This document shows, piece by piece, positions 1,916 to 39,218 of a stretch of 64,000 nucleotides of DNA. The notes below the pieces were generated by a model. That model was not told the DNA's origin and did not search any database. It saw only the letters and a program-made list of their open reading frames with translations. Position 1 is the first letter of the stretch. Every line of letters starts with the position of its first letter. Where the stretch lies: assembly GCA_016235815.1 (NCBI GenBank), contig JACRIM010000031.1:1-64000 (forward strand), written 5' to 3'. The position numbers were made by a program, and so were the translations under genes. The stretch comes from Planctomycetota bacterium. Its GTDB lineage: Bacteria; Planctomycetota; Phycisphaerae; UBA1845; UTPLA1.

Positions 1916-3994
1916 TTAACCGTTCGCCAAGTACGACGCGACGAACCCCGCGATATCCGATCCGTTCGCCAAGGAATCGACATTGATGTCCGACCGGGCC
2001 ACATGCTGCGCGTTCACGTCCAGCCCGAGCAGCACGTCCACGAAGTTCGACACATCGAGCGTGTCGATGTCGCCGTCGATGTCCAGATCCCCCGGCGGCG
2101 TCTTGATGAGTGTGAAGTGATCCGACGTCACGGAGTCGCGCCGAATGTTCGCCAGCGACAACACATTCCCCTCGATCGTCACCACGCACGATCCATAGTC
2201 CAATTCCGAGAAGTACATCAGCGGATGATCGGCCGTGCCGCTGATCGCCGCTCCGCCGTGTCCGGCAACGATGTAGACGGCGCCCTCATGGCTGGTTTGC
2301 CCGAGCGACTTCAGATAGGCCCCGGTTCCATCGGTTCGCCCATCGCCGGCATCAACGATGTGCCCGGCCGCGGTGGTCGGCGTGTCATAGGCGCCATCCA
2401 CAAGATACGACCGCTCGTAGATGTGCGAGTGCCCGCCCAGCACCAAATCCACTCCGCCCGCCTCGAGGATCGGCAGCGCGTTCTCGCGCATGTCCTTCAG
2501 TCGTCCGCTCGAATCCAGTGGATCGTCGGAATCATGCGACCCATGCGAATACGGCGGATGATGCCAATAGGCGATCACCCAGTTCTGCGTCGTCATGGCG
2601 AGATCATTCGCCAGCCACGTCAACATCGCCGACCCCGGCGTGCGCGGCGAATCGTGGGAATCGAGACAGATGAAATGCGCGTTCGCGTAGTCGAACGAGT
2701 AGTAGGCCTCGGTGTTCGAGGCAAGACCACCCGCCTCGGCGACCATGGGCATGACAAACGCGGTGTAATACGGGCCGGTTTGGGTCTGCGAATCCGACAA
2801 CGTCCCCTCGTGATTACCGAGCGTCGGCCAGCAGACCGTGTGCCGAAGAATGCCCTGATACACGCCGAAGTGGTAATTGTTGAATTCAGTATTCGTCCCG
2901 CTGTTGTAGGCGATGTCGCCCATGTGCAGCCAGAAATCGGGCGGGTCGGCCGCCGTCACGGCCAGCATGGCATTGCGCACCTGGGTCTGCTCGACGCTTC
3001 CGTTGCCGCAGTCGCCGACCATCCAAAACGAGAACTGCCCACGGCTTCCCGGCGTCGGCGATGTCGCCAGGTAGTGGTTCGCGTCGCCACCCGCGAGCAC
3101 CTGCCCGGTGAGGCCGACGTCGTAGTAGTACGTGGTGGCGGGCGACAATCCGCTCAGCGTGACGTAATGGTCAATCCGAAGTGTTGGATCGCTCACCGTC
3201 GATGTGAGCGAACCCGGCGCAGCGCCGAAGTGCACGACGCTGTCCGTGGCCATGTTCGTCCGCCAGCAAATTGTCATCGACGTCGGCGTGCCGAGCTGCA
3301 GATAAGGCGCACGCACCAGCGACGGCGGAACCGCGGCGCCGTAGTTGACGGTGAGCTTCGGCCGATTCGTAATCGCGGCATACTCGCTCGACCGGATTTG
3401 AACTCCGTCAGTGCCAGTGGAGAGGATGATCCACCCCTTGTTCAAAGCCGGATCGGAACTCCAGAGGACGAGACTCGGCGTGACGTCGATGTTGTAGGTC
3501 GTGAGCGAGGAGCCCGTTGCGGAATTGACATAGGTGCCATAATCGGCGGCGTCGACGCCCGGTGTGCCGCCGAGTGTGGCCCAAGTGGTGGCGCCGCTCC
3601 AGTTCGACGCGGCCTCATAGATTACTCCGACCGTTCCAGTATTAAAGACGGTGTACGTCAGCGTCGCGGACGTGATTTGAGAGCCTACGGGGACTTGCCC
3701 CACACCGCCGCCGAAGATGGAGTCAAAGCGGATAAGCCCTGCATTCACCTGGTTCGTTCCAGGGGGATCATCTCCGTCCCATTCGACGGACGCCGACGCG
3801 CCATTCGCCGTCGCCGGCGCAGCCTGTTGAATAAAGTTGTCCACCGTTCCGGAGTAGCCCGAGACGCCGTTCTGAAAGGTGACGAGCACGGCGCGAGCGG
3901 TCGAGGCGCACGCAAACGTACACGCAAGAATCGCGGCGATAAAGTGCCCGGCAGGCGTCGCGCAAACCGTCTTCCATGAACATTGCCGGATCAT
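1916..3994 (-). CDS. Secreted purple-acid-phosphatase-like metallophosphoesterase with dockerin-like tail
   Basis: A 692-aa exported phosphoesterase. Domains in order: signal peptide (residues 1-36); a DNRLRE/CBM96-like beta domain (about 36-215); a fibronectin/purple acid phosphatase N-like domain beginning VRAPYLQLGTPTSM; and a calcineurin-type catalytic domain with the ordered metal motifs GDCGNGS, GDIAYNSG, GNHEG, HHPPYSHG and GHSHIYER. The C-terminal ~60 residues carry two Ca-binding-type loops (DLDIDGDIDTLDV and DINVDSLANGSD), a dockerin-like module common in planctomycete exoproteins. Its start overlaps the stop of the upstream TPR gene by 4 nt (ATGA), indicating translational coupling. 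The substrate cannot be read from sequence; phosphomonoester or phosphodiester scavenging is plausible. Confidence 0.88.
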   Translation of the reverse strand: MIRQCSWKTVCATPAGHFIAAILACTFACASTARAVLVTFQNGVSGYSGTVDNFIQQAAPATANGASASVEWDGDDPPGTNQVNAGLIRFDSIFGGGVGQVPVGSQITSATLTYTVFNTGTVGVIYEAASNWSGATTWATLGGTPGVDAADYGTYVNSATGSSLTTYNIDVTPSLVLWSSDPALNKGWIILSTGTDGVQIRSSEYAAITNRPKLTVNYGAAVPPSLVRAPYLQLGTPTSMTICWRTNMATDSVVHFGAAPGSLTSTVSDPTLRIDHYVTLSGLSPATTYYYDVGLTGQVLAGGDANHYLATSPTPGSRGQFSFWMVGDCGNGSVEQTQVRNAMLAVTAADPPDFWLHMGDIAYNSGTNTEFNNYHFGVYQGILRHTVCWPTLGNHEGTLSDSQTQTGPYYTAFVMPMVAEAGGLASNTEAYYSFDYANAHFICLDSHDSPRTPGSAMLTWLANDLAMTTQNWVIAYWHHPPYSHGSHDSDDPLDSSGRLKDMRENALPILEAGGVDLVLGGHSHIYERSYLVDGAYDTPTTAAGHIVDAGDGRTDGTGAYLKSLGQTSHEGAVYIVAGHGGAAISGTADHPLMYFSELDYGSCVVTIEGNVLSLANIRRDSVTSDHFTLIKTPPGDLDIDGDIDTLDVSNFVDVLLGLDVNAQHVARSDINVDSLANGSDIAGFVASYLANG

Positions 3995-28501: not shown

Positions 28502-30706
28502 ATGAGCATCGGCACGAACACAATTCGCGTGGACGGCTGCGCCAAATTGACCGGCGCGGCGATGTACGTCGACGACCTGACGCTGCCCGGGATGCTCCAT
28601 GGGGCGACGATTCGCACGCCGATCGCGCGCGGCCGTATTAAAAAGATCCATTTCGACCCGGCCATCAACTGGTCGGAGTTCGTCGTCGTCGACCATCGGG
28701 ACATCCCCGGGGGCAATGCGGTCGCCCTCATCGAGAGAGATCAACCGGCACTGGTAGCGAGCGAGTTTCGTCATAAGCACGAGGCGGTGTTGCTGATTGC
28801 CAATGCGTCGGTTCACAAATTGCGCGATGCCGTGCGGGCGATTCGCCTGGAGGTCGAGCCGCTGCCGGCCATTCTGGATGCGCGCGCGACCGCGCGACCC
28901 GAGCAGATTCAACACGGCGCGGACAATGTGCTGAAACGCCTCACGATCCACAAAGGCGATCCCGGGGCGGTCTTCGCCTCAGCGCCGCATGTCATCGAGG
29001 GGACGTATCACACCGGGGCGCAGGAGCATGTGTATCTTGAAACCCAGGGCATGCTCGCCCATCGTGAGAACGGCCGGATGGTCGTGCGCGGGTCGATGCA
29101 GTGTCCGTACTACGTGCTCGATTCGCTGACCCATGCATTTGGCTGGCCGCGCGAGGCATTCAGCGTCGTGCAGGCGGCGGTCGGCGGAGGCTTCGGCGGC
29201 AAGGAGGATTACCCATCGAACATTGCCATTCACGCAGCACTGCTTGCAGAGAAGGCCGGCGCGCCGGTGAAGCTGGTCTATGACCGGCAGGAGGACATGG
29301 CCGCGACGACCAAGCGGCATCCAAGTTGGGTGCGCCATCGCACTGCGGTGGACAAAGATGGGCGATTGCTGGCGATGGAGATCGAGGTGATGCTCGATGG
29401 CGGCGCGTATGTCACGCTGTCACCGGTCGTGCTCAGTCGTGGGTGCATTCACTCGTCGGGGCCGTATTTCTGCGAGCATATTCACATTCACGGCGAGGCT
29501 CGGCTGACGAACTCGATGCCCTACGGAGCGTTTCGCGGATTCGGCGCGCCGCAGACCATCTTCGCGATGGAGCGGCACATGGATGTGATCGGATCGCGCA
29601 TCGGCGTGGACCCCGTCGAACTGCGCCGACGAAACTTCCTTCGCGATGGACAAACGATGGCGACGGGTCAGATTTATCGCGATGGGACGGATCTCGTTGC
29701 ATTGATGGATCGCACACTGCGCGAGGCCGACTATCACGCGAAGCGAAAATCGCACGCATCGTTCAACGCGACGCATCCCTATCTGCGAAGGGGAATCGGC
29801 ATCGCGTCGTTTCACCACGGCTCGGGCTTTACCGGCGGAGGCGAGACGAAACTTGCGTCGGAGGTTTGGGTCGAAGGGATGCCCGACGGCAGCGTGGAAG
29901 TGCAAACGGCGCAGACCGACATGGGCCAGGGCACATCGACGATTCTCGCGCAGGTCGCGGCGGATGCGCTGGAGATGTCCCCGGGCGGCGTGCTCGTCGC
30001 GACACCCGATACAGCGCGCGTGCCCAACAGTGGGCCGACCGTGGCGAGTCGGACGGCAATGGTCGTGGGCAAACTGACGCATCGCGCGGCGGAAGATTTG
30101 TCGAAACAGCTTGGCGGCGTGCGCGGACCGAGCATCACGGGGGCGATCCGTGCGTGGCACGCGGCGAACCCGGGCAAGAACCTCGTCGGCCGGGCGAAAT
30201 ATGAAAAGCCCGCGACGATTGTGTGGAACGATGCGACGTATCAGGGCGATGCCTATGCCTCGTATTCATGGGCGACCTACGTGGCCGAGGTGGAGGTCGA
30301 TCTGCGGACGTATGCAACGCGTGTGACGGATTTCGTCGCGGCGCAGGAAGTCGGGCGTGTGCTGAATCCGACCCTGGCGCGCGGGCAGGTGCAGGGCGGC
30401 GTCGTACAGGGAATCGGCTGGGCAATCTACGAAGACGTCGTACTCGAAGACGGCGCGATGAAAAACTGCCAGATGACGAATTACATCATCCCCGCCAGCG
30501 CCGACCTGCCGCCGATTCGCGTCTTTTTTGAAGAGACGCCATCGCCCTATGGACCCGGCGGTGCGAAGGGAATCGGCGAGATGCCCATCGACGGCCCTGC
30601 GCCGGCTGTGGTGAATGCGATTAGTGCGGCAGTGGGCATGTCCATTGATGCCATTCCTGTGACACCCGAACGGCTGATGGAGCGATTGGATGGTGCGCAT
30701 GGATAG
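28502..30706 (+). CDS. Molybdenum hydroxylase, Mo-binding large subunit (XdhA/CoxL type)
   Basis: A 734-aa catalytic subunit of a three-subunit molybdenum hydroxylase. The N-terminal a/b hammerhead ([20 protein letters not shown]) is followed by the Mo-cofactor domains: [29 protein letters not shown] (a conserved Arg region of xanthine dehydrogenases), [20 protein letters not shown] and [18 protein letters not shown], whose Glu is the catalytic base position. It hydroxylates an N-heterocycle or aldehyde using water; the substrate cannot be told. It is the first gene of a Mo-FeS-FAD operon, with 17-bp and 14-bp overlaps to the next genes. The gene symbol is left empty because purine versus other substrate is unclear. 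Confidence 0.88.
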
Positions 30707-31172
30707 GCTCGCCCTTCGATTCATGCTGAATGGCCGTGAGACAACGGTCGAGACTGCGCTCGATGCGCGGCTGCTCGATGTGCTTCGCTACGACTGCGCC
30801 CAGACCGGCACCAAGGAAGGCTGCGGCGAAGGCGAGTGCGGGGCGTGTACCGTGCTGCTCGATGGGTTGCCGGTGAATTCGTGTCTTGTACCGGCGTTTC
30901 AGGTCGAGGGGCGGCGCGTAGAGACGGTCGAATCAACGCCAGTGGAACTCGCCGCTTCGCTCAATGCAACCGGCACGTCGCAATGCGGTGCATGTACACC
31001 GGGCATCGTGATGTCCATTCGGTGGCTCGCCGAACATCCGGAAGCGATGGAATCGATGACCCTGCGCGAGATCATGAGCGGCAATCTCTGTCGCTGCACC
31101 GGCTACGACGGCGTCATCGAAGGAGCCGTGCAAGCACTGAAGCAATGCGGAGGCGACCATGCAGGTGCATAG
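30690..31172 (+). CDS. Molybdenum hydroxylase, 2Fe-2S subunit (XdhC/CoxS type)
   Basis: A 160-aa electron-transfer subunit with two 2Fe-2S clusters. The plant-type cluster is [15 protein letters not shown] (plus Cys in NSCLVPA), and the second uses [11 protein letters not shown] and [10 protein letters not shown]. It passes electrons from the Mo centre to the FAD subunit. The ATG at 30690 overlaps the end of the Mo subunit; an alternative ATG is at 30699 (MDRLALRF). It overlaps the FAD subunit start by 14 bp, so all three are tightly co-translated. Confidence 0.9.
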
Positions 31173-31977
31173 GCCCGCCACGCTTGACGAAGCGCTGCAA
31201 CTCATGCAGCGGCCCGACGCGCGACCTCAGCCAATCGCCGGCGGGACGGACCTGCTCGTTTCGTGGCATCATCGAGCGAAGGAGAGCGTGCGACTGATGG
31301 ATATGTCGCGGCTCGAAGAGCTGCGCACATTGCGACTGACAAACGAGTCGCTGGAGATCGGTGCGCTCGCGACGTACTGGGACGTCATCACGTCGGCGGA
31401 GATTTCGGAGACATTTCCATTACTTGCGCAGGCAGCCAAGCAGGTCGGAGCGATGCAAATCCAAACGCGCGGGACATGGGCCGGCAACATCGGTAACGGC
31501 TCGCCCGCGGCCGACGGCGTGCCGGTGCTCATGGCGTACGACGCGACCGTGACGCTGGCTTCGTCGCGCGGTCGGCGCGATGTGGCGCTGTGTGACTACT
31601 GGACGGGCTACAAAAAATCGGTCAAAGCCGACGACGAATTGATCGTCGGCATTCGTGTTCCGCGCCGCGCGTGCGATTTCGAATGGTTCCACAAGGTCGG
31701 GGCGCGGGCAGCGCAGGCCATCACCAAGGTCGGCGTTGCGATGGTGCATTCGGCGGACGGGTGGCGCGTGACGGCGAACAGCGTGGCCCCTTTCGTATGT
31801 CGATGTCGAGCGATGGAGGCGGCGCTTGATCGTGGCGAGGTGTTCCAAGGCCCTGATGATGTGCGGCAAGTGATCTCGCGCGACGTGTCGCCGATTGACG
31901 ACCTGCGTTCGACGGCGGCGTATCGGCTCGCAGTGCTATCGCGACTGGTGTTTTTCCGAATGTCGGGGCATTTGTAA
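31159..31977 (+). CDS. Molybdenum hydroxylase, FAD-binding subunit (XdhB/CoxM type)
   Basis: A 272-aa flavin subunit that passes electrons to NAD+ or another acceptor. The FAD-binding motifs are [15 protein letters not shown] (the AGGTDLL pyrophosphate loop) and [20 protein letters not shown] (the GGNI/SP signature). It ends the three-gene operon. The final 42 bp overlap the 3' end of the convergent zinc-ribbon gene, a fairly large tail-to-tail overlap. The C-terminal domain of CoxM type is short. Function and substrate follow the Mo subunit. Confidence 0.9.
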
Positions 31978-32532
31978 GAGTGTCCCGCACTCAGGACATC
32001 GATTGCTGATTCCTCTCAGATCGTAACCGCAAGTATTGCAGGCTTCAGGTTCATGAGGTCGGCGCTTGCGGTGAATGATGACAATGAACAGGCTCACAAG
32101 AATCGGCAGCCACAGCGGCAACACGCATGATTTTATCTGAGTTCCGTGAGCCGGGTCGTGCAATCGAAAGATTGGTTTCCAGAATCCGAACAGGCGTTGA
32201 CCCATGAGTGGTTCGCGCCACCATACCAAATCACAAATCTCAGAAATCCATAATTCCGCATAGCAGTTTACTTCCCATGTACCGCGTCCCTCGATTGACT
32301 GACCTGCGCCGGTTGCCTCCATAGGAGGAAGAAAGCCATTGCGTAACCAACTTGCTCTAAGACCCGAGTCATCTCCCCAATAGACTCCAATGAATCCTTG
32401 TTGAATTGTCCAAGTAAGAGACCAGCCGTAATAGTTTATTTCACAGAGCAGACTGATCGCAAAGAGAATCAACGAAGTCGAAAGCAGTACATATCCAAGG
32501 CGAAGGCGGTCGCGTTTGGTAATACCATTCAT
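31936..32532 (-). CDS. Membrane protein with CGYDLRG/CPECG zinc ribbon
   Basis: A 198-aa protein with two hydrophobic spans: one near the N-terminus (YVLLSTSLILFAISLLCEI) and one before the tail (VLPLWLPILVSLFIVIIHR). The C-terminus has NTCGYDLRGISNRCPECGT, a rubredoxin-like C-x2-C...C-x2-C zinc ribbon of a form very common in planctomycete genomes, usually on otherwise unrelated membrane proteins. Function unknown. Its start overlaps the xdhC stop by 4 nt (ATGA), so it is translationally coupled to xdhC, and its 3' end overlaps the FAD subunit gene by 42 bp. Confidence 0.72.
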   Translation of the reverse strand: MNGITKRDRLRLGYVLLSTSLILFAISLLCEINYYGWSLTWTIQQGFIGVYWGDDSGLRASWLRNGFLPPMEATGAGQSIEGRGTWEVNCYAELWISEICDLVWWREPLMGQRLFGFWKPIFRLHDPAHGTQIKSCVLPLWLPILVSLFIVIIHRKRRPHEPEACNTCGYDLRGISNRCPECGTLLQMPRHSEKHQSR

Positions 32533-33491
32533 CTGGACTGATCCGATGTTGAATGTGATTCGATCGGTCCCTCCACCAAAAGAGGTGTAGCGCGGCGACG
32601 AATTTCAATGAGCTGCCCCACGATGCTGACGGCGATTTCGGGGACGGTGATGGCGCGGATGTCGAGGCCGATGGGCGTGTGGACGCGGACGAGCTGCTCG
32701 TCCGTGACGCCGAGGGCGCGAAGATCGTCGAAGATCAGCCGGCTCTTGCGACGGCTGCCGATGAGGCCAATGTATGCGGCAGCGCGGCGGACGACGGCTT
32801 CGACGGCCTGTTCGTCGTGCTGGTGGCCGCGCGTGACGATGACGACATAGGAGCCGGCATCGAGTGGCTGCTCGCGAAGTGATTGCGGGATGTCGCCGAT
32901 GACGAGCTTCACGCGCGGGTCGAACCGCAACGAGGATGCGTAGTCGGCGCGGTCATCGATGACGACGACGTGAAAGTCGAGATCAACGGCCAGCCGCGCG
33001 ACGGCCTGCCCGACGTGGCCCGCACCGGCGATGAGCAACGTGGGCGGGATTTCGAGGTTCACCAGATAGCGCAGGCGTTTTCCGTCGTGATCGATGTCGA
33101 TGGGGAACGATGCCGGCTCTCGGCGGCGCGTTTTCTCAAGGGCGATTCGCCACGGATCGAGATCGCAGTCGCCCACGAACGGCATCACGGCGACCTTCAT
33201 ACGCCCACCGCAGATGAGGCCGTCATCCCAGCCGAAGTCGTGATCGAGGACGTAATCCAGCAACGCGCTGCTGCCTTGATGCATGAGCTCCAAGGCACGT
33301 CGCCGCACCTCGGCCTCGACGCATCCGCCGCCGAGCGTGCCGGTGGTGGAGCCGTCAGCGCGGACGAGCATGGTCGCGCCGGGGCATTGCGGCGTGCTGC
33401 CGCGCGTTTCTACGATGGTGCAGAGCGTGACAGGCCGACGGGCGTCGGTGTCGTTGATGAGCGATTCAAGAGTAGGGAGGAGGTCGCTCAT
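32529..33491 (-). CDS. xdhC: XdhC-family molybdenum cofactor insertion/sulfuration protein
   Basis: A 320-aa accessory protein that binds and sulfurates or delivers the Mo cofactor to xanthine-dehydrogenase-type enzymes. N-terminal XdhC/CoxI domain: CTIVETRGSTPQCPGATMLV, GTLGGGCVEAEV, with the conserved Cys of GGGC. C-terminal Rossmann domain: PTLLIAGAGHVGQAVARLA and YVVIVTRGHQHDEQAV, IGLIGSRRKSR. The start is the ATG at 33491; the frame extends 74 codons upstream across the antitoxin gene but that part is a shadow. It lies 25 bp after the ParD-like gene and belongs with the fused hydroxylase transcribed before it. Confidence 0.93.
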   Translation of the reverse strand: MSDLLPTLESLINDTDARRPVTLCTIVETRGSTPQCPGATMLVRADGSTTGTLGGGCVEAEVRRRALELMHQGSSALLDYVLDHDFGWDDGLICGGRMKVAVMPFVGDCDLDPWRIALEKTRRREPASFPIDIDHDGKRLRYLVNLEIPPTLLIAGAGHVGQAVARLAVDLDFHVVVIDDRADYASSLRFDPRVKLVIGDIPQSLREQPLDAGSYVVIVTRGHQHDEQAVEAVVRRAAAYIGLIGSRRKSRLIFDDLRALGVTDEQLVRVHTPIGLDIRAITVPEIAVSIVGQLIEIRRRATPLLVEGPIESHSTSDQSR

Positions 33492-33516
33492 GATTACAAT
33501 AGGGTGAGCGTGGCGT

Positions 33517-33765
33517 CTATTTGGATCTGCCAGCCTTGCGATGACGAAACGCCGCATCGCCATCAAGCGTGCCGGACTTTCGGATGCTGCGTTCGCCTTC
33601 TTCCAGAAGCGCATCCAGTTCGCCGGGGCGAAACTCGCCAAAGTCTTCCTGGGCGATAAGGCTCCCGATCGCAGCGGATACAACGTCTTCTGGGCAATCG
33701 TACTGCCCGTCACGGACCTTCTTTTCGATCAGTCGCTGAGTACGACGGCTTAGTGTGAGGGTCAT
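33517..33765 (-). CDS. ParD-like ribbon-helix-helix antitoxin, no toxin partner
   Basis: An 82-aa DNA-binding antitoxin-like protein. The start MTLTLSRRTQRLIEKKVRDG and CPEDVVSAAIGSL match the ParD/CC2985-type RHH antitoxins, in which the first strand binds the operator, followed by an acidic C-terminal toxin-binding arm (LDALLEEGERSIRKSG). A GGAG ribosome site precedes the ATG. A ParE-like toxin gene would be expected directly downstream, but the next gene, 25 bp away, is xdhC. So it is an orphan sitting inside the molybdenum-hydroxylase transcription unit between the fused enzyme (29 bp upstream) and xdhC. It might act as a plain regulator of that operon. Confidence 0.78.
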   Translation of the reverse strand: MTLTLSRRTQRLIEKKVRDGQYDCPEDVVSAAIGSLIAQEDFGEFRPGELDALLEEGERSIRKSGTLDGDAAFRHRKAGRSK

Positions 33766-33794: not shown

Positions 33795-36497
33795 TCAGTT
33801 TGACCTCGGCCCCAGCATCGCCTTCGCCGCCGGGGAATCCTTCATCGGCAGTGTCGTGCGGTGGAAGCCCTCGAACTTCGCCAGCGCGCCGGCCACGGCC
33901 GGGGCGGTCGGAACGAGGCCGATCTCGGCAACACCGCGAGCGCCGTAGGGACACTCGGGGTCGGGCGTCTCCACGATGATGAGTTCCAACTCCGGCATCT
34001 GGTGCGCTCGCAACACGCCGCAGGATTTAACGTCGTCCGTCACGAGGCGACCCTTCTCGTACACCATTTCTTCGGTGAGCGCGTAGCCCAGGCCCATGTG
34101 GATCGAGCCTTGCAACTGCCCCTCCAGCAGCGTCGGGTTCATTGCCTTGCCGACATCGTGGGCGGCGATGAACTTTTTGATGCGGCCGGTGTCATCGAGG
34201 ATGCACACCTGCGTTGCGAAGCCGTAGGTCAGGTGCGTCTTGGGGTCAGGGACATCGGCGCCAAACTTATCCGTCTTGTAACACTCCCAACCGCCGAGAT
34301 ACTTGCGGCCGGCGAGCGATTGCAGTTTCTTCCGTGCAGATTCCGGCGATTCGCCATTCATGCCGACCGACGCGAGATCCGCGGCTAACTTTTTGCACGC
34401 ATCGATGACGGCGTGACATGTGAGCACCGTTCCGCGACTACCCGTCGTCTGGCCTGCGTCGTTTGGATCATCCGTGTCGCAGGTCGCGTGGAAAACTTCG
34501 TGCGGCAGCCCTGTCTCCTGCACGGCCGTTTGAATCGCGACGGTGAACAGCCCCTGGCCCATCTCGGTGTGGCCGGTGCGAAGGGTAATGTGGCCGTCCG
34601 GTTCGACCGTAAAGCTGGCCCGGCCGATCTCGGGCAGACCATTGCCGATGCCGACGTTCTTGATGCCACAGGCGATGCCCGCGAACTTCTCGGCGCGGTA
34701 GGCATCGCGCACGGCGAGCAGCGTTTCTTCGAGGCCGAATGGTTTCGTGAGGCGTTGGCCGGTGCAGAAGCGGTCGCCCTGACGCAGGATATTCCGCCAG
34801 CGAATTTCCCAGCCGTCGATGCCGATCTTTTCGGCGAGCATGTCCAGCGCGCCTTCAATGGCATAGGCCGCCTGATTCGCACCGAAGCCGCGCATGGCAC
34901 CGTTCGGCGGGTTGTTCGTGTAGACCGCGAGGGCCTCGATATCGATCGTGTCGCACTTGTACGGCCCGATGGCGTGGCCCGCGGCGCGCTCCAGCACTTT
35001 TGCGCCGACTGAAGCATAGGCTCCCTTGTCACCGAGGATGCGCGCCCGAACGGCTGTCAGGCGTCCATCGGCGTCGCAACCAACTTTCAAATGAATTCGA
35101 ACGGGGTGACGCTTGGGATGCACACGCAGACTCTGCTCGCGCGTCAGTACGCACTTCACGGGCTTGCCGACCAACACGGCGCACAAGGCCGTTTGCGCCT
35201 GGATGCTCATGTCCTCTTTGCCGCCGAACGCGCCGCCATTGCTGACCAGCTCGGCCTGCACACGCTCAATCGGCCAGCCGAGAATCTTCGCGATCTGCCG
35301 ACGATCGTCGAAGATGCCCTGCCCCTGCGTCAGCACACGGACAGCCGACACCGGCGAACCATTGCCCGACACAGCGCCATTCTCAAACAACGGTGAGGCT
35401 ATGCACGCCTCAGGTTCGAGAAACATGTGTTCGATGCACTGAGTCTGCCATGTGTTTTCGATAACGTGTGCGGAGACCGCGAGTCGGCCTTCCACGTCGC
35501 CGCGAGACAGGGCGCTCTTCGAAAGCAGGTTGCCCTTGGCGTGGACCCTTGGCGCATCGGGCTTGAGCGCATCCTCCGGCGTGGTTACCGGCTCGCGCAC
35601 CTCGTAATCGATTGCGATCAATTCCGCAGCGCGACGGGCCGTGTGCTCATCCGCGGCGACGACAAACGCCAGCATGTCGCCGACGTAACGTGTCTCTTCG
35701 CCCTCGGCGATAAAGATGGGCCAGTCTTGCGTGATCAACCCGACGACGCGGTCGCCGGGGACATCCTTTGCGGTCACAACGCGGATCACTCCCGGAAGTG
35801 CAAGCGCGGGAGCCGGGTCGATCCGCTTCACCAGCGCGCGAGGATGGTCACTCAATCGTGGTGCCGCAAAGACCATGCCGGGCACACTGATGTCATCGAT
35901 AAACTTCTTGTCGCCCAGGGCCGATTCGCGCCCGACGTACTTCGGCAGGCGATCGCCAACACCGCCCTTGCAGCCGTTCTCCGGCATCGGCTCACCCCGG
36001 CGAACCTTCGCCAGCAAGTCGATGGCCTCGACGATCTTGGTGTAGCCCGTGCAACGGCAGAGATGCGCACGAAGCTCCGTGTTAATCTGGTCGTGCGTCG
36101 GCGCGGGATTTTTCTCGCACAAGGCATGTGCCCGAATGGCGATGCCGGGGATGCAGAAGCCGCATTGCACCGCGCCGCTTTGGGCGAAGCACTCGGAGAT
36201 TTGCTCACGCTGCGGTCCCGAAAGCCCCTCCAGCGTCGTCACCTGCTTATTTGCAACAGTCGACGCCTTGATCGTACAGGAGAGGCGCGGCTTGCCGTCG
36301 ATGAGGATCGTGCAACAGCCGCACTGCCCCATTGGCTGGCAGCCATCCTTGGGCGAGAGGATTTGTAAGTCTTCGCGCAGGACATCGAGCAGGCTCTTGC
36401 CCTGATCGACCACGCTCACGGCGCGACCATTCAACACGAACGAAAAGGACTCCTCCTTAAACGGACGCGCGACCGGGATGTCCACGATTTGTGACAT
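33795..36497 (-). CDS. Fused 2Fe-2S/Mo hydroxylase, selenium-dependent xanthine dehydrogenase type
   Basis: A 900-aa enzyme with the iron-sulfur part at the N-terminus (residues 1-160: CQPMGQCGCCTILIDGK, CGFCIPGIAIRA and CRCTGYTK) fused to the Mo-binding part (from about 190). Mo motifs: NGGAFGGKEDMSIQAQ, NGAMRGFGANQAAYA (M-R-G-F-G, as in the selenium-dependent family rather than F-R-G-F-G), TGHTEMGQGLFTVAIQ, and RGVAEIGLVPTAPAV, with the catalytic Glu. There is no FAD domain. This is the architecture of Se-dependent xanthine dehydrogenases, which carry a labile selenium ligand on Mo and contain no selenocysteine codon. A YgfK-like gene divergent from it and MocA beyond support the call. Substrate: xanthine or another purine is likely, not proved. 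Confidence 0.85.
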   Translation of the reverse strand: MSQIVDIPVARPFKEESFSFVLNGRAVSVVDQGKSLLDVLREDLQILSPKDGCQPMGQCGCCTILIDGKPRLSCTIKASTVANKQVTTLEGLSGPQREQISECFAQSGAVQCGFCIPGIAIRAHALCEKNPAPTHDQINTELRAHLCRCTGYTKIVEAIDLLAKVRRGEPMPENGCKGGVGDRLPKYVGRESALGDKKFIDDISVPGMVFAAPRLSDHPRALVKRIDPAPALALPGVIRVVTAKDVPGDRVVGLITQDWPIFIAEGEETRYVGDMLAFVVAADEHTARRAAELIAIDYEVREPVTTPEDALKPDAPRVHAKGNLLSKSALSRGDVEGRLAVSAHVIENTWQTQCIEHMFLEPEACIASPLFENGAVSGNGSPVSAVRVLTQGQGIFDDRRQIAKILGWPIERVQAELVSNGGAFGGKEDMSIQAQTALCAVLVGKPVKCVLTREQSLRVHPKRHPVRIHLKVGCDADGRLTAVRARILGDKGAYASVGAKVLERAAGHAIGPYKCDTIDIEALAVYTNNPPNGAMRGFGANQAAYAIEGALDMLAEKIGIDGWEIRWRNILRQGDRFCTGQRLTKPFGLEETLLAVRDAYRAEKFAGIACGIKNVGIGNGLPEIGRASFTVEPDGHITLRTGHTEMGQGLFTVAIQTAVQETGLPHEVFHATCDTDDPNDAGQTTGSRGTVLTCHAVIDACKKLAADLASVGMNGESPESARKKLQSLAGRKYLGGWECYKTDKFGADVPDPKTHLTYGFATQVCILDDTGRIKKFIAAHDVGKAMNPTLLEGQLQGSIHMGLGYALTEEMVYEKGRLVTDDVKSCGVLRAHQMPELELIIVETPDPECPYGARGVAEIGLVPTAPAVAGALAKFEGFHRTTLPMKDSPAAKAMLGPRSN

Positions 36498-36577
36498 GCC
36501 TGATCATTATACCGGGCTTGTGGGATGCAACCAAAGAATTGAGCACGCCGAATCAGCGAAGAATCAGTTATCGATGG

Positions 36578-36583
36578 TACAAT
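36578..36583 (+). promoter_or_regulatory. Possible -10 element close to the ygfK-like start
   Basis: TACAAT at 36578-36583 (extended form, tggtacaat) ends 8 nt before the ATG at 36592. If used, the transcript would be nearly leaderless. No good -35 is seen. The 94-bp divergent gap also serves the fused hydroxylase. Confidence 0.3.
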
Positions 36584-36591
36584 AACTCGCT

Positions 36592-38613
36592 ATGGCCGAG
36601 TTGGTTCCTGCCCCCTTTCCCGATCTCGTTACCCGCCTGTACCGGGAACCGCGGAACCAGGACGCCCTTTTCGAACTGAAGCGCAATCGCTGGTATGCCC
36701 CGCCGACCGGCGGACCCGACCTCTCCGTGCAATTCCATGACCAACGCGCCGGCAACCCGCTCGGGCCTGCCGCCGGGCCGCACACGCAGATGGCGCAAAA
36801 CATTCTGCTCAGCTATGTCGCGGGCGGACGCATCCTCGAACTCAAGACCGTGCAAATCAACGACCGCCTCACCATCGGCCGACCATGCATCGATCTGACG
36901 AACGTGGGGTACAACATTGAATGGTCGCAAGAGTTGCTCGTGGAAGATTCGATCCGCGAGTACGTGGCCGGAGCGATGCTCGTGCACATGTTTCGCTTCG
37001 CGCACGAAGCAACGCACAACGAACCGCACGTGCCCGCAAGCGGTCTTTCTCAACTGCCTGGGCCGACGGGCGAGGTGATCTACGACCTCAGCGTCGGCTA
37101 CGACCTCGCGGGGATTCGAAGCGACAAGATTCGGGCGTTCCTCCACTCGATGCGCGACGCCTCCGTTCTCGTCGACCGGCTTCGCGACGAGATACCTTCG
37201 GAATTCGCCGCGGCACGGGCCTTGGAGTACCCATCCTGTCTCTCGAACAGCATCACACTTTCGACCTTTCACGGTTGCCCTGCCGACGAGATCGAGCGAA
37301 TCTGCGAATTCCTGATCGGCGAGGAAGATTTCAGCGTCATCGTCAAGATGAACCCGCCCATGCTCGGCAAGGAACGGCTTGAGCATCTGCTCCACGACGT
37401 GATGGGCTACACCGAACTAGCGGTAAACCCTTCGGCGTACGCGTCGGGCCTGGCATTTGACGAGGGCGTTCAGCTCTGTCGCCGGCTCACCGATTACGCC
37501 ACGGCTCGCGGACGGTACTTCGGGGCGAAGTTCAGCAACACGCTTGAAGTGATGAACCACCGCGATTTCTTTACGCCGGACAATAACGTGATGTACCTCT
37601 CGGGCCAGCCGCTGCACGTCATCACCATGACGCTGACGGATGAATTCGCACGGGCAATAGGGCCGCAGTTTCCAATCTCGTTCAGCGCGGGGATCGACGC
37701 GCAGAACTTCCCCGCTGCCGTAGCGTGTGGCTTCACCCCGATCACCGTGAGCAGCGATTTGCTTCGACCCGGCGGGTATGGACGAATGGGAGCATACCTG
37801 GAGAAACTGGCGAGCGAGATGCGGCGCGTCGGGGCGGGAAATGTGGATGAGTACATCCTGCGCGCACGTGAAAACGGCACTGCGGGAACGAATCAAGATG
37901 CTGCTGCAAGGAACCTGTCGATTATCGCTGAGGAAGTGCGCAACGACCCGCGATACCGCGCCGACAAAAATCGCAAGATACCGACGCGCGTTGATTCACA
38001 CCTGGAGACGTTCGACTGCCTCACCTGCGACAAGTGCCTGCCGGTCTGCCCCAACGCGGCAAACTTCACCTATCCCACGCCGATCACCGCGTTCGACTAC
38101 CACGATTTAGTCATCGCCACGGATGGATCGTGGAAACCCGGCGAGTCGCACCGATTCGAAATCACCGAGACCATGCAGATTGCCTGCTACAGCGACTTCT
38201 GCAATGAATGCGGCAACTGCGACACCTTTTGCCCCGAATACGGCGGCCCCTACATCAAGAAACCGACGTTTTTCGGCAGCGTGGCGACATGGGAAAAGGC
38301 CGCCCCGCGCGACGGCTTTGTCACGCAGCGCACGAAGAACGGCGGCTGGATTCGCGGTCGTGTCAAAGGGCATCTATTTCAGCTGACGGTAAATGCCGCA
38401 GACGGCTGTGCGATATTTGATGATGGCGCCGCCGAGATTGAATTCGCCATAGGTAGAATGACACCGAACGAAGTGAATAAAAAAGCAAACGGTGAGCACC
38501 ATGTGAACATGTGGGCGTATCACACCCTGCGGCACCTTTACCATGGCGTGCATGACCCATCGCGAATCAACCAGGTGAACTCAGCTGCGCATGTCGCGGA
38601 GTCGCGATCGTGA
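36592..38613 (+). CDS. YgfK-like protein lacking the FAD/NAD(P) module
   Basis: A 673-aa protein related to YgfK, the putative selenate-reductase-type partner of Se-dependent molybdenum hydroxylases. The N-terminal half is a dihydroorotate-dehydrogenase-like TIM barrel: AAGPHTQMAQNILLSY, ELKTVQINDRLTI, STFHGCPADEIERI, NNVMYLSGQPLHVITM, and ITVSSDLLRPGGYGRMGAYL. The C-terminal part has ferredoxin-type motifs CLTCDKCLPVCPNAANF (C476, C479, C482, C486) and CNECGNCDTFCPEYGG (C537, C540, C543, C547). Full-length YgfK (about 1030 aa) has a GltD-like FAD/NAD(P) domain between these two parts; here the barrel runs straight into the Fe-S region. The gene is divergent from the fused hydroxylase and overlaps mocA by 4 nt (GTGA). 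Confidence 0.85.
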   Translation: MAELVPAPFPDLVTRLYREPRNQDALFELKRNRWYAPPTGGPDLSVQFHDQRAGNPLGPAAGPHTQMAQNILLSYVAGGRILELKTVQINDRLTIGRPCIDLTNVGYNIEWSQELLVEDSIREYVAGAMLVHMFRFAHEATHNEPHVPASGLSQLPGPTGEVIYDLSVGYDLAGIRSDKIRAFLHSMRDASVLVDRLRDEIPSEFAAARALEYPSCLSNSITLSTFHGCPADEIERICEFLIGEEDFSVIVKMNPPMLGKERLEHLLHDVMGYTELAVNPSAYASGLAFDEGVQLCRRLTDYATARGRYFGAKFSNTLEVMNHRDFFTPDNNVMYLSGQPLHVITMTLTDEFARAIGPQFPISFSAGIDAQNFPAAVACGFTPITVSSDLLRPGGYGRMGAYLEKLASEMRRVGAGNVDEYILRARENGTAGTNQDAAARNLSIIAEEVRNDPRYRADKNRKIPTRVDSHLETFDCLTCDKCLPVCPNAANFTYPTPITAFDYHDLVIATDGSWKPGESHRFEITETMQIACYSDFCNECGNCDTFCPEYGGPYIKKPTFFGSVATWEKAAPRDGFVTQRTKNGGWIRGRVKGHLFQLTVNAADGCAIFDDGAAEIEFAIGRMTPNEVNKKANGEHHVNMWAYHTLRHLYHGVHDPSRINQVNSAAHVAESRS

Positions 38614-39218
38614 GCGAAATACCGGTTGAGGTTCACGCCATCATCCCCGCCGCCGGCTTCTCTCGACGAATGGGCCGCGACAAGCAACTCATCGAGATCG
38701 ACGGACGACCAATGCTACTGAGCATAGTGAATACGTTGATCGAGGCCGGCCTGTCGCGCGTCATGGTAGTAACGCGCCGCGCCATCGCCGAGTCGCTGAG
38801 CCTCCCACATCATGATCATGTCCAAATCTCCTATAACGAGGACGCAACGAGCGAGATGATCGACTCCATACGTATCGGCCTCGATGCACTCGCTCACACC
38901 GTTGACGTTAAGCCAACCGGCTACCTCGTCTGTCCCGGCGATCTGCCTCGGCTCTCGACCGACGACGTGCGCGCTTGCCTTGACGCTTTCTCGAAGAACG
39001 CCAACCGAATTATCATCGCGTCACACTCGGGACGGCGCGGTCACCCGCTTATCTTTCCTGCGTCACTGTCCGTCTTCGTTCACTCCCCCACATGCGACCT
39101 CGGTCTCAATGCCATTTGCCTCGTTCACGCCGATACCTTACTTCTCGTGCCATGCGCCTCCGACGGCATCCTTATCGATGCCGACAGGCCGGACGATTTG
39201 CCGCCGAAGGCCCGTTGA
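38610..39218 (+). CDS. mocA: Molybdenum cofactor nucleotidyltransferase (MocA/YgfJ-like)
   Basis: A 202-aa enzyme that attaches CMP (or GMP) to molybdopterin to make the dinucleotide cofactor used by xanthine-dehydrogenase-type enzymes. The NTP-transferase signature is AIIPAAGFSRRMGRDKQLI, with GYLVCPGDLPRLSTDDV as the second acidic metal motif and SGRRGHPLIFP the third, all as in MocA/YgfJ. The start is GTG, overlapping the stop of the ygfK-like gene (GTGA). It completes a divergent cofactor/enzyme cluster with the fused hydroxylase and xdhC. Whether it makes MCD or MGD is not certain, but MCD is expected for this enzyme family. Confidence 0.9.
   Translation: MSEIPVEVHAIIPAAGFSRRMGRDKQLIEIDGRPMLLSIVNTLIEAGLSRVMVVTRRAIAESLSLPHHDHVQISYNEDATSEMIDSIRIGLDALAHTVDVKPTGYLVCPGDLPRLSTDDVRACLDAFSKNANRIIIASHSGRRGHPLIFPASLSVFVHSPTCDLGLNAICLVHADTLLLVPCASDGILIDADRPDDLPPKAR

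Follow-up and report, generated by a model that had tools for sequence, protein, structure and literature searches.

A relative of YgfK without its FAD/NAD(P) module, encoded beside a molybdenum (Mo) hydroxylase that also lacks an FAD domain, raises the question of which reactions the two proteins catalyze and from where they obtain or to where they deliver their electrons. Both genes lie in a stretch of 64,000 nucleotides from a Planctomycetota bacterium (assembly GCA_016235815.1, contig JACRIM010000031.1, positions 1 to 64,000), hereafter called the window. The interval 36592–39218, from which the question arose, spans two genes, those of the short YgfK and of a MocA-like protein.

Features of the Locus

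The features of the window that are relevant to this analysis were the following.

28502–30706, + strand: Mo subunit of a separate three-subunit xanthine-dehydrogenase-type enzyme (profile matches)
30690–31172, + strand: 2Fe-2S subunit of the three-subunit enzyme (profile matches)
31159–31977, + strand: FAD subunit of the three-subunit enzyme (profile matches)
32529–33713, − strand: XdhC-like maturation factor of Mo hydroxylases (profile matches)
33795–36497, − strand: fused 2Fe-2S/Mo hydroxylase of the XdhAC type, FAD domain absent (TIGR03311, 935 bits, above the cut-off of 830)
36498–36591, no strand: divergent intergenic region of 94 bp between the fused Mo enzyme and short ygfK
36592–38613, + strand: short YgfK (barrel at residues ~25–448, motifs C476–C486 and C537–C547, C-terminal beta domain)
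38610–39218, + strand: MocA-like molybdenum cofactor cytidylyltransferase, overlapping the ygfK stop (TIGR03310, 110 bits, below the cut-off of 186)

Profile scans agreed with the initial annotation in that the divergent neighbor is a fused 2Fe-2S/Mo enzyme without an FAD domain. It was 43% identical, over the whole length, to the selenium-dependent xanthine dehydrogenase of Enterococcus faecalis, a TIGR03311 enzyme that likewise has no FAD domain and keeps its 2Fe-2S cysteines intact. FAD-free Mo enzymes of this family are already known, so that the neighbor by itself is unremarkable. The 2Fe-2S cysteine motifs were kept in the enzymes of the window, E. faecalis and Collinsella and were missing from E. 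coli XdhD (L057:23317-26187). Besides the flavin-free enzyme, the window holds a second Mo hydroxylase (28502–31977), which contains FAD. On the cofactor side, the MocA and XdhC named in the initial annotation were both found as MocA-like and XdhC-like genes, and mocA is kept beside short ygfK in relatives. No sigma-70-like promoter was matched in the 94-bp divergent region.

The gene yqeB is a marker of selenium-dependent Mo hydroxylases (PMC2276186), and E. faecalis pairs its TIGR03311 enzyme with a full-length YgfK and with yqeB, yqeC and selD. Two of the selenium genes that the initial annotation had proposed to look for, selD and yqeB, gave a divided answer in the 26 genomes of the class that encode short YgfK (see below): selD was present in 24 of them, each time with one in-frame TGA as in selenocysteine-type SelD (G000:C21:11582-12505 in the window's genome), whereas yqeB (TIGR03309) was detected in none of the 26, the E. 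coli positive control being found. Since the marker is absent from all 26, selenium dependence of the fused enzyme is doubtful; a selenium-containing Mo site is unlikely, and the TIGR03311 family name is misleading here.

The Short YgfK Protein

The short ygfK gene is one intact open frame of 673 amino acids without internal stops or frameshifts, and no second homologue was found in the 4.58-Mb genome. The YgfK profile TIGR03315 matched the protein in two separate stretches (4e-107, 359 bits), the score remaining below the cut-off of 835 bits, compared with 1779 bits for E. coli YgfK. Residues 5–419 matched profile positions 5–404, which corresponds to the N-terminal barrel of YgfK (1–405), and local alignment paired the barrel with residues 6–405 of the E. 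coli protein at about 32% identity. The Pfam scan yielded Fer4-type matches alone, in the C-terminal part, and no match to a Fer4_20/FAD/NAD(P) module; E. coli YgfK, scanned identically, gave Fer4_20 at 453–532 and Pyr_redox_2 at 552–839. Both CxxCxxCxxxC motifs (C476/C479/C482/C486 and C537/C540/C543/C547) aligned locally to the C-terminal region of E. coli YgfK, at about 905–957. In 51 aligned relatives the second motif was invariant in its four cysteines, as were C476, C482 and C486 of the first.

The initial annotation had stated that the barrel and both motifs are retained without a frameshift and that a GltD-like module has been lost from between the motifs. The retention and the loss were both borne out by these data, but the position given for the module was wrong. 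As Fer4_20 and Pyr_redox_2 of the E. coli protein (together 453–839) precede both motifs, the alignments place the missing module between the barrel and the C-terminal Fe-S domain.

The predicted structure of the barrel (AF2, pLDDT 92, pTM 0.94) was that of an FMN-type TIM barrel of the dihydroorotate and dihydropyrimidine dehydrogenase type. Its best match was pig dihydropyrimidine dehydrogenase (Z 28.7, 293 residues, 2.6 Å with VIA), which was also the top match of Foldseek, and the model also superposed on dihydroorotate dehydrogenases (Foldseek, VIA). This match makes it reasonable to infer both FMN binding and a ring reduction from the model. A sequence search of short YgfK against solved structures gave no significant match. 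The domain following the first Fe-S motif (residues ~483–673, window 38038–38613) is beta-rich and, when modelled separately (a modest model), had no match in the PDB at E ≤ 0.001, a result that does not bear on whether the domain is novel.

Distribution and Phylogeny of the Short Form

Short YgfK was found in 26 of 298 sampled genomes of the window's class, where full-length matches were open frames of about 660–880 amino acids and one clear fragment (in genome G127) lay where a contig ends. In a GTDB scan at least 576 relatives were retrieved, the 44 that were translated measuring about 640–750 amino acids. The best 80 of these (at least 576) relatives belonged to Planctomycetota, Sumerlaeota, KSB1, Ignavibacteriota, Acidobacteriota, Verrucomicrobiota, Marinimicrobia, Myxococcota, Armatimonadota, Elusimicrobiota and others. 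The short form is real, conserved and widespread and, as judged from these sequences, constitutes one large clade, which is retained in Planctomycetota and in some ten further phyla. The initial annotation had suggested a survey of its spread and had allowed for a truncation limited to one strain; a strain-specific truncation or frameshift of ygfK is ruled out by the intact frame and by the presence of the short form in many genomes and phyla.

In a tree of the barrel, rooted by midpoint only, the short forms made up one group with a support of 85. Its sisters were two long YgfK proteins of 1135–1177 amino acids from the same phylum (L226 from genome G346 and L227 from genome G322), which have FAD motifs and a GltD-like module between the barrel and the C-terminal domain, and the YgfK type of E. 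coli, Enterococcus and Collinsella was located farther away. The simplest reading of this tree would be a single early loss of the module in the short clade.

Co-occurrence and Gene Context

The TIGR03311 Mo enzyme was encoded in all 26 genomes with short YgfK and in only 2 of the 272 others of the class (Fisher p 2e-35, kinship not corrected); counted by genus, it occurred in 19 of 19 versus one other (p 2e-26, kinship not corrected either). An SsnA-family gene was present in 25 of the 26, and the TIGR03314 match was absent from G127, a genome 86% complete in which short ygfK is cut by the contig end. Among the best 80 of the at least 576 GTDB loci, the Mo gene directly adjoined short ygfK in 24, divergently in 13 and co-directionally in 11. 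Thirty-five GTDB loci had at least 9 kb on each side, and these contained ssnA (23), the Mo enzyme (20), ygeW (14) and ygeY (12). When 20-kb neighborhoods were searched by tblastn with the genes of the purine cluster of E. coli, ssnA, mocA, xdhC, ygeW, ygeY, yqeA and the Mo enzyme gene were located near short ygfK in relatives. The same gene set surrounded it in many phyla, where clusters contain palp1-ssnA-ygfK(short)-Mo enzyme-ygeW-palp2-ygeY-yqeA.

In the genome of the window, ssnA, two PALP-family enzymes, ygeW and ygeY were found together on another contig (C27). Its SsnA (G000:C27:164747-166033) matched the full TIGR03314 model with 372 bits, below the cut-off of 455.5, and YgeW (TIGR03316, 626 bits versus a cut-off of 500) and YgeY (TIGR03526, 516 versus 321.5) exceeded theirs. 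The hydantoinase HyuA was not seen in the parts of contigs C27 and C5 that were read. Two PALP-family enzymes are kept in ssnA clusters (L065:1056-2405 on the − strand and ~2390–3838 on the + strand, with homologues in L080–L159), and they may take the place of the diaminopropionate ammonia-lyase YgeX.

The two genomes of the class with the Mo enzyme and without short YgfK, G118 and G251, were informative. In both, the ygfK slot holds a PreT-like and PreA-like pair (L164:8795-11325 in G118:C138 and L165:12698-15228 in G251:C264), which adjoins the FAD-free Mo enzyme and lies near mocA and ssnA. The PreT-PreA pair corresponds by sequence to a two-chain dihydropyrimidine dehydrogenase and seems to have taken the place of the reductase of the purine ring; this swap is strong evidence that the slot belongs to a ring-reducing enzyme. 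Short YgfK and the FAD-free Mo enzyme are one functional unit.

Proposed Function

A reductive uric-acid pathway was characterized in 2025 in gut bacteria (PMC12507026, PMC12990295). In this pathway urate is converted into yanthine by XdhD-YgfM with NADH (PMC12507026) or by XdhAC of C. sporogenes, which was supplied with an artificial donor and whose physiological donor has been named an open question (PMC12990295), and yanthine is converted into ureidomethyl-hydantoin by E. coli YgfK and SsnA with NAD(P)H (PMC12507026). C. difficile has an XdhD without the FAD subunit and a ring reductase, UacX, without an FAD domain, for which ferredoxin was proposed (PMC12507026), and for C. chromiireducens PydAc, a dihydropyrimidine dehydrogenase that has no FAD domain, reduced ferredoxin has been demonstrated as the donor (PMC7332683). 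The initial annotation knew of no description of such a design. These FAD-less analogues contradict that view, and by analogy the pair of short YgfK and the Mo enzyme appears to repeat the PydAc/UacX logic with a different reductase family.

From sequence, predicted fold, conservation, co-occurrence and gene context we infer, with a probability of roughly 0.7, that short YgfK is a yanthine reductase fed externally through its Fe-S clusters and that the Mo enzyme is a urate reductase. Urate produced by the three-subunit xanthine dehydrogenase (28502–31977) would be reduced to yanthine (2,8-dioxopurine) by the divergent FAD-free Mo enzyme, acting as an XdhAC-type urate reductase, and short YgfK would then reduce yanthine, breaking its aromaticity. 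The active site would be in the FMN barrel, to which the two C-terminal 4Fe-4S clusters would pass electrons. As the NAD(P)H/FAD module is missing, these should come from an external one-electron carrier, most likely reduced ferredoxin, with a flavoprotein of the PreT type acting in trans as the alternative, and the Mo enzyme would take electrons via its 2Fe-2S clusters from the same kind of donor. The later steps would be carried out by SsnA, YgeW, YgeY and the PLP enzymes of the second locus. With a barrel identity to E. coli YgfK of only about 32%, the substrate could differ.

If so, a second enzyme of the reductive uric-acid pathway would also lack its NAD(P)H module, and the two co-occur in many phyla beyond the gut. 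The joint loss points to one shared donor, other than a pyridine nucleotide, for both FAD-less enzymes, which is directly testable. The pathway would be extended to Planctomycetota, Ignavibacteriota, Acidobacteriota, Myxococcota and others, in which the protein is still annotated as selenate reductase. That annotation derives from the old family name, TIGR03315 being called "putative selenate reductase subunit YgfK"; however, yanthine reduction has been demonstrated for YgfK of E. coli (PMC12507026) and the context of short ygfK is that of purine breakdown, so that a role as a selenate reductase subunit is very improbable.

The initial annotation had also suggested a compact route from Mo to 2Fe-2S to 4Fe-4S to the barrel flavin. 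On this reading the Mo enzyme would oxidize a purine, such as xanthine to give urate, and hand the electrons to YgfK within one complex, as a self-contained redox couple. The two genes co-occur almost without exception and often lie directly side by side, both enzymes lack a pyridine-nucleotide site, and the clusters contain no dedicated donor, all of which agrees with such a route. However, the homologous FAD-less XdhAC and XdhD are urate reductases, and both enzymes would therefore consume electrons (PMC12507026, PMC12990295); a separate FAD-containing xanthine dehydrogenase is available for the oxidation in the window and in several relatives, and in several genomes the two genes are far apart or on different contigs. 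The functional unit and the passage of electrons through Fe-S clusters can be retained from this proposal, whereas Mo as the electron source is not supported, both enzymes being reductases in this pathway, and we consider the route quite unlikely. A broader version, in which one complex with a single Fe-S entry performs both urate reductions in sequence, or else drives ring reduction at FMN with electrons from a purine oxidized at Mo, no pyridine nucleotide being involved, is also unlikely; were either form true, it would represent a molybdo-flavo Fe-S assembly of a new kind and account for the physiological donor of XdhAC.

Candidate Electron Donors

No convincing ferredoxin gene was identified in the short-ygfK clusters, nor was a GltD-type subunit found in clusters L080–L159, save for one YgfT-like match in L124. 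The initial annotation had considered that the missing domain might be encoded elsewhere as a separate flavoprotein, and the window's genome does encode a single Fer4_20 protein (447 amino acids, G000:C5:2401-3741) that matches residues 432–836 of YgfK, which is exactly the missing stretch. A function as the small subunit of glutamate synthase was ruled out for this protein, the large subunit (PF01645) being absent from this genome, and it is PreT-like instead. It could thus be imagined that YgfK is split, with the PreT-type FAD/NAD(P) protein docking as PreT does on PreA and the dependence on NAD(P)H being kept. Orthologues (about 60% identity or more) in 22 of the 26 short-YgfK genomes versus 1 of the 272 others argue for this reading, as does the PreT-PreA pair filling the ygfK slot of G118 and G251. 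Nevertheless, the PreT-type gene lies outside the ygfK clusters and adjoins preA in at least 10 genomes, the window's genome has a preA-like gene of its own (G000:C27:114516-115607), and four genomes with short YgfK (G254, G266, G096 and G127) have no orthologue. The adjoining preA genes offer a simpler reason than a split YgfK for the distribution of the orthologues. A flavoprotein covering the missing region therefore exists, but its first partner is probably PreA, judging from gene order, although it may serve both PreA and short YgfK; a split YgfK appears rather doubtful. By the precedent of PydAc and UacX, ferredoxin would most likely be the first choice of donor and PreT in trans the second.

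Comparison with Known Systems

E. coli YgfK shares with the short form the N-terminal barrel, the C-terminal 4Fe-4S domain with two motifs and the link to SsnA and to a Mo hydroxylase, and differs in its use of NAD(P)H through the module at 453–839. UacX and PydAc, FAD-less reductases of the DHOD family that are driven by viologen or ferredoxin, resemble short YgfK in combining an FMN barrel with Fe-S clusters while missing the NAD(P)H module; UacX has as its partner a FAD-less XdhD, similarly to the Mo enzyme here. Both are members of the PydA/DHO_dh family, in contrast to short YgfK, which belongs to the YgfK family. Moreover, PydAc has two ferredoxin domains of eight cysteines each and four 4Fe-4S clusters, whereas short YgfK has two four-cysteine motifs, that is, eight motif cysteines in total, and is not of the PydAc type in this respect. 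PreA of the E. coli PreT-PreA enzyme is likewise a separate chain with a barrel and a C-terminal Fe-S domain and a possible PreT-type partner, but its barrel is of a different family and, unlike preA, short ygfK has no adjoining PreT gene in its clusters. Finally, in Collinsella aerofaciens a gene for a 4Fe-4S protein (L161:14994-15473) is located between a full-length ygfK and an FAD-free xdh, and its product is a possible electron link between YgfK and that enzyme.
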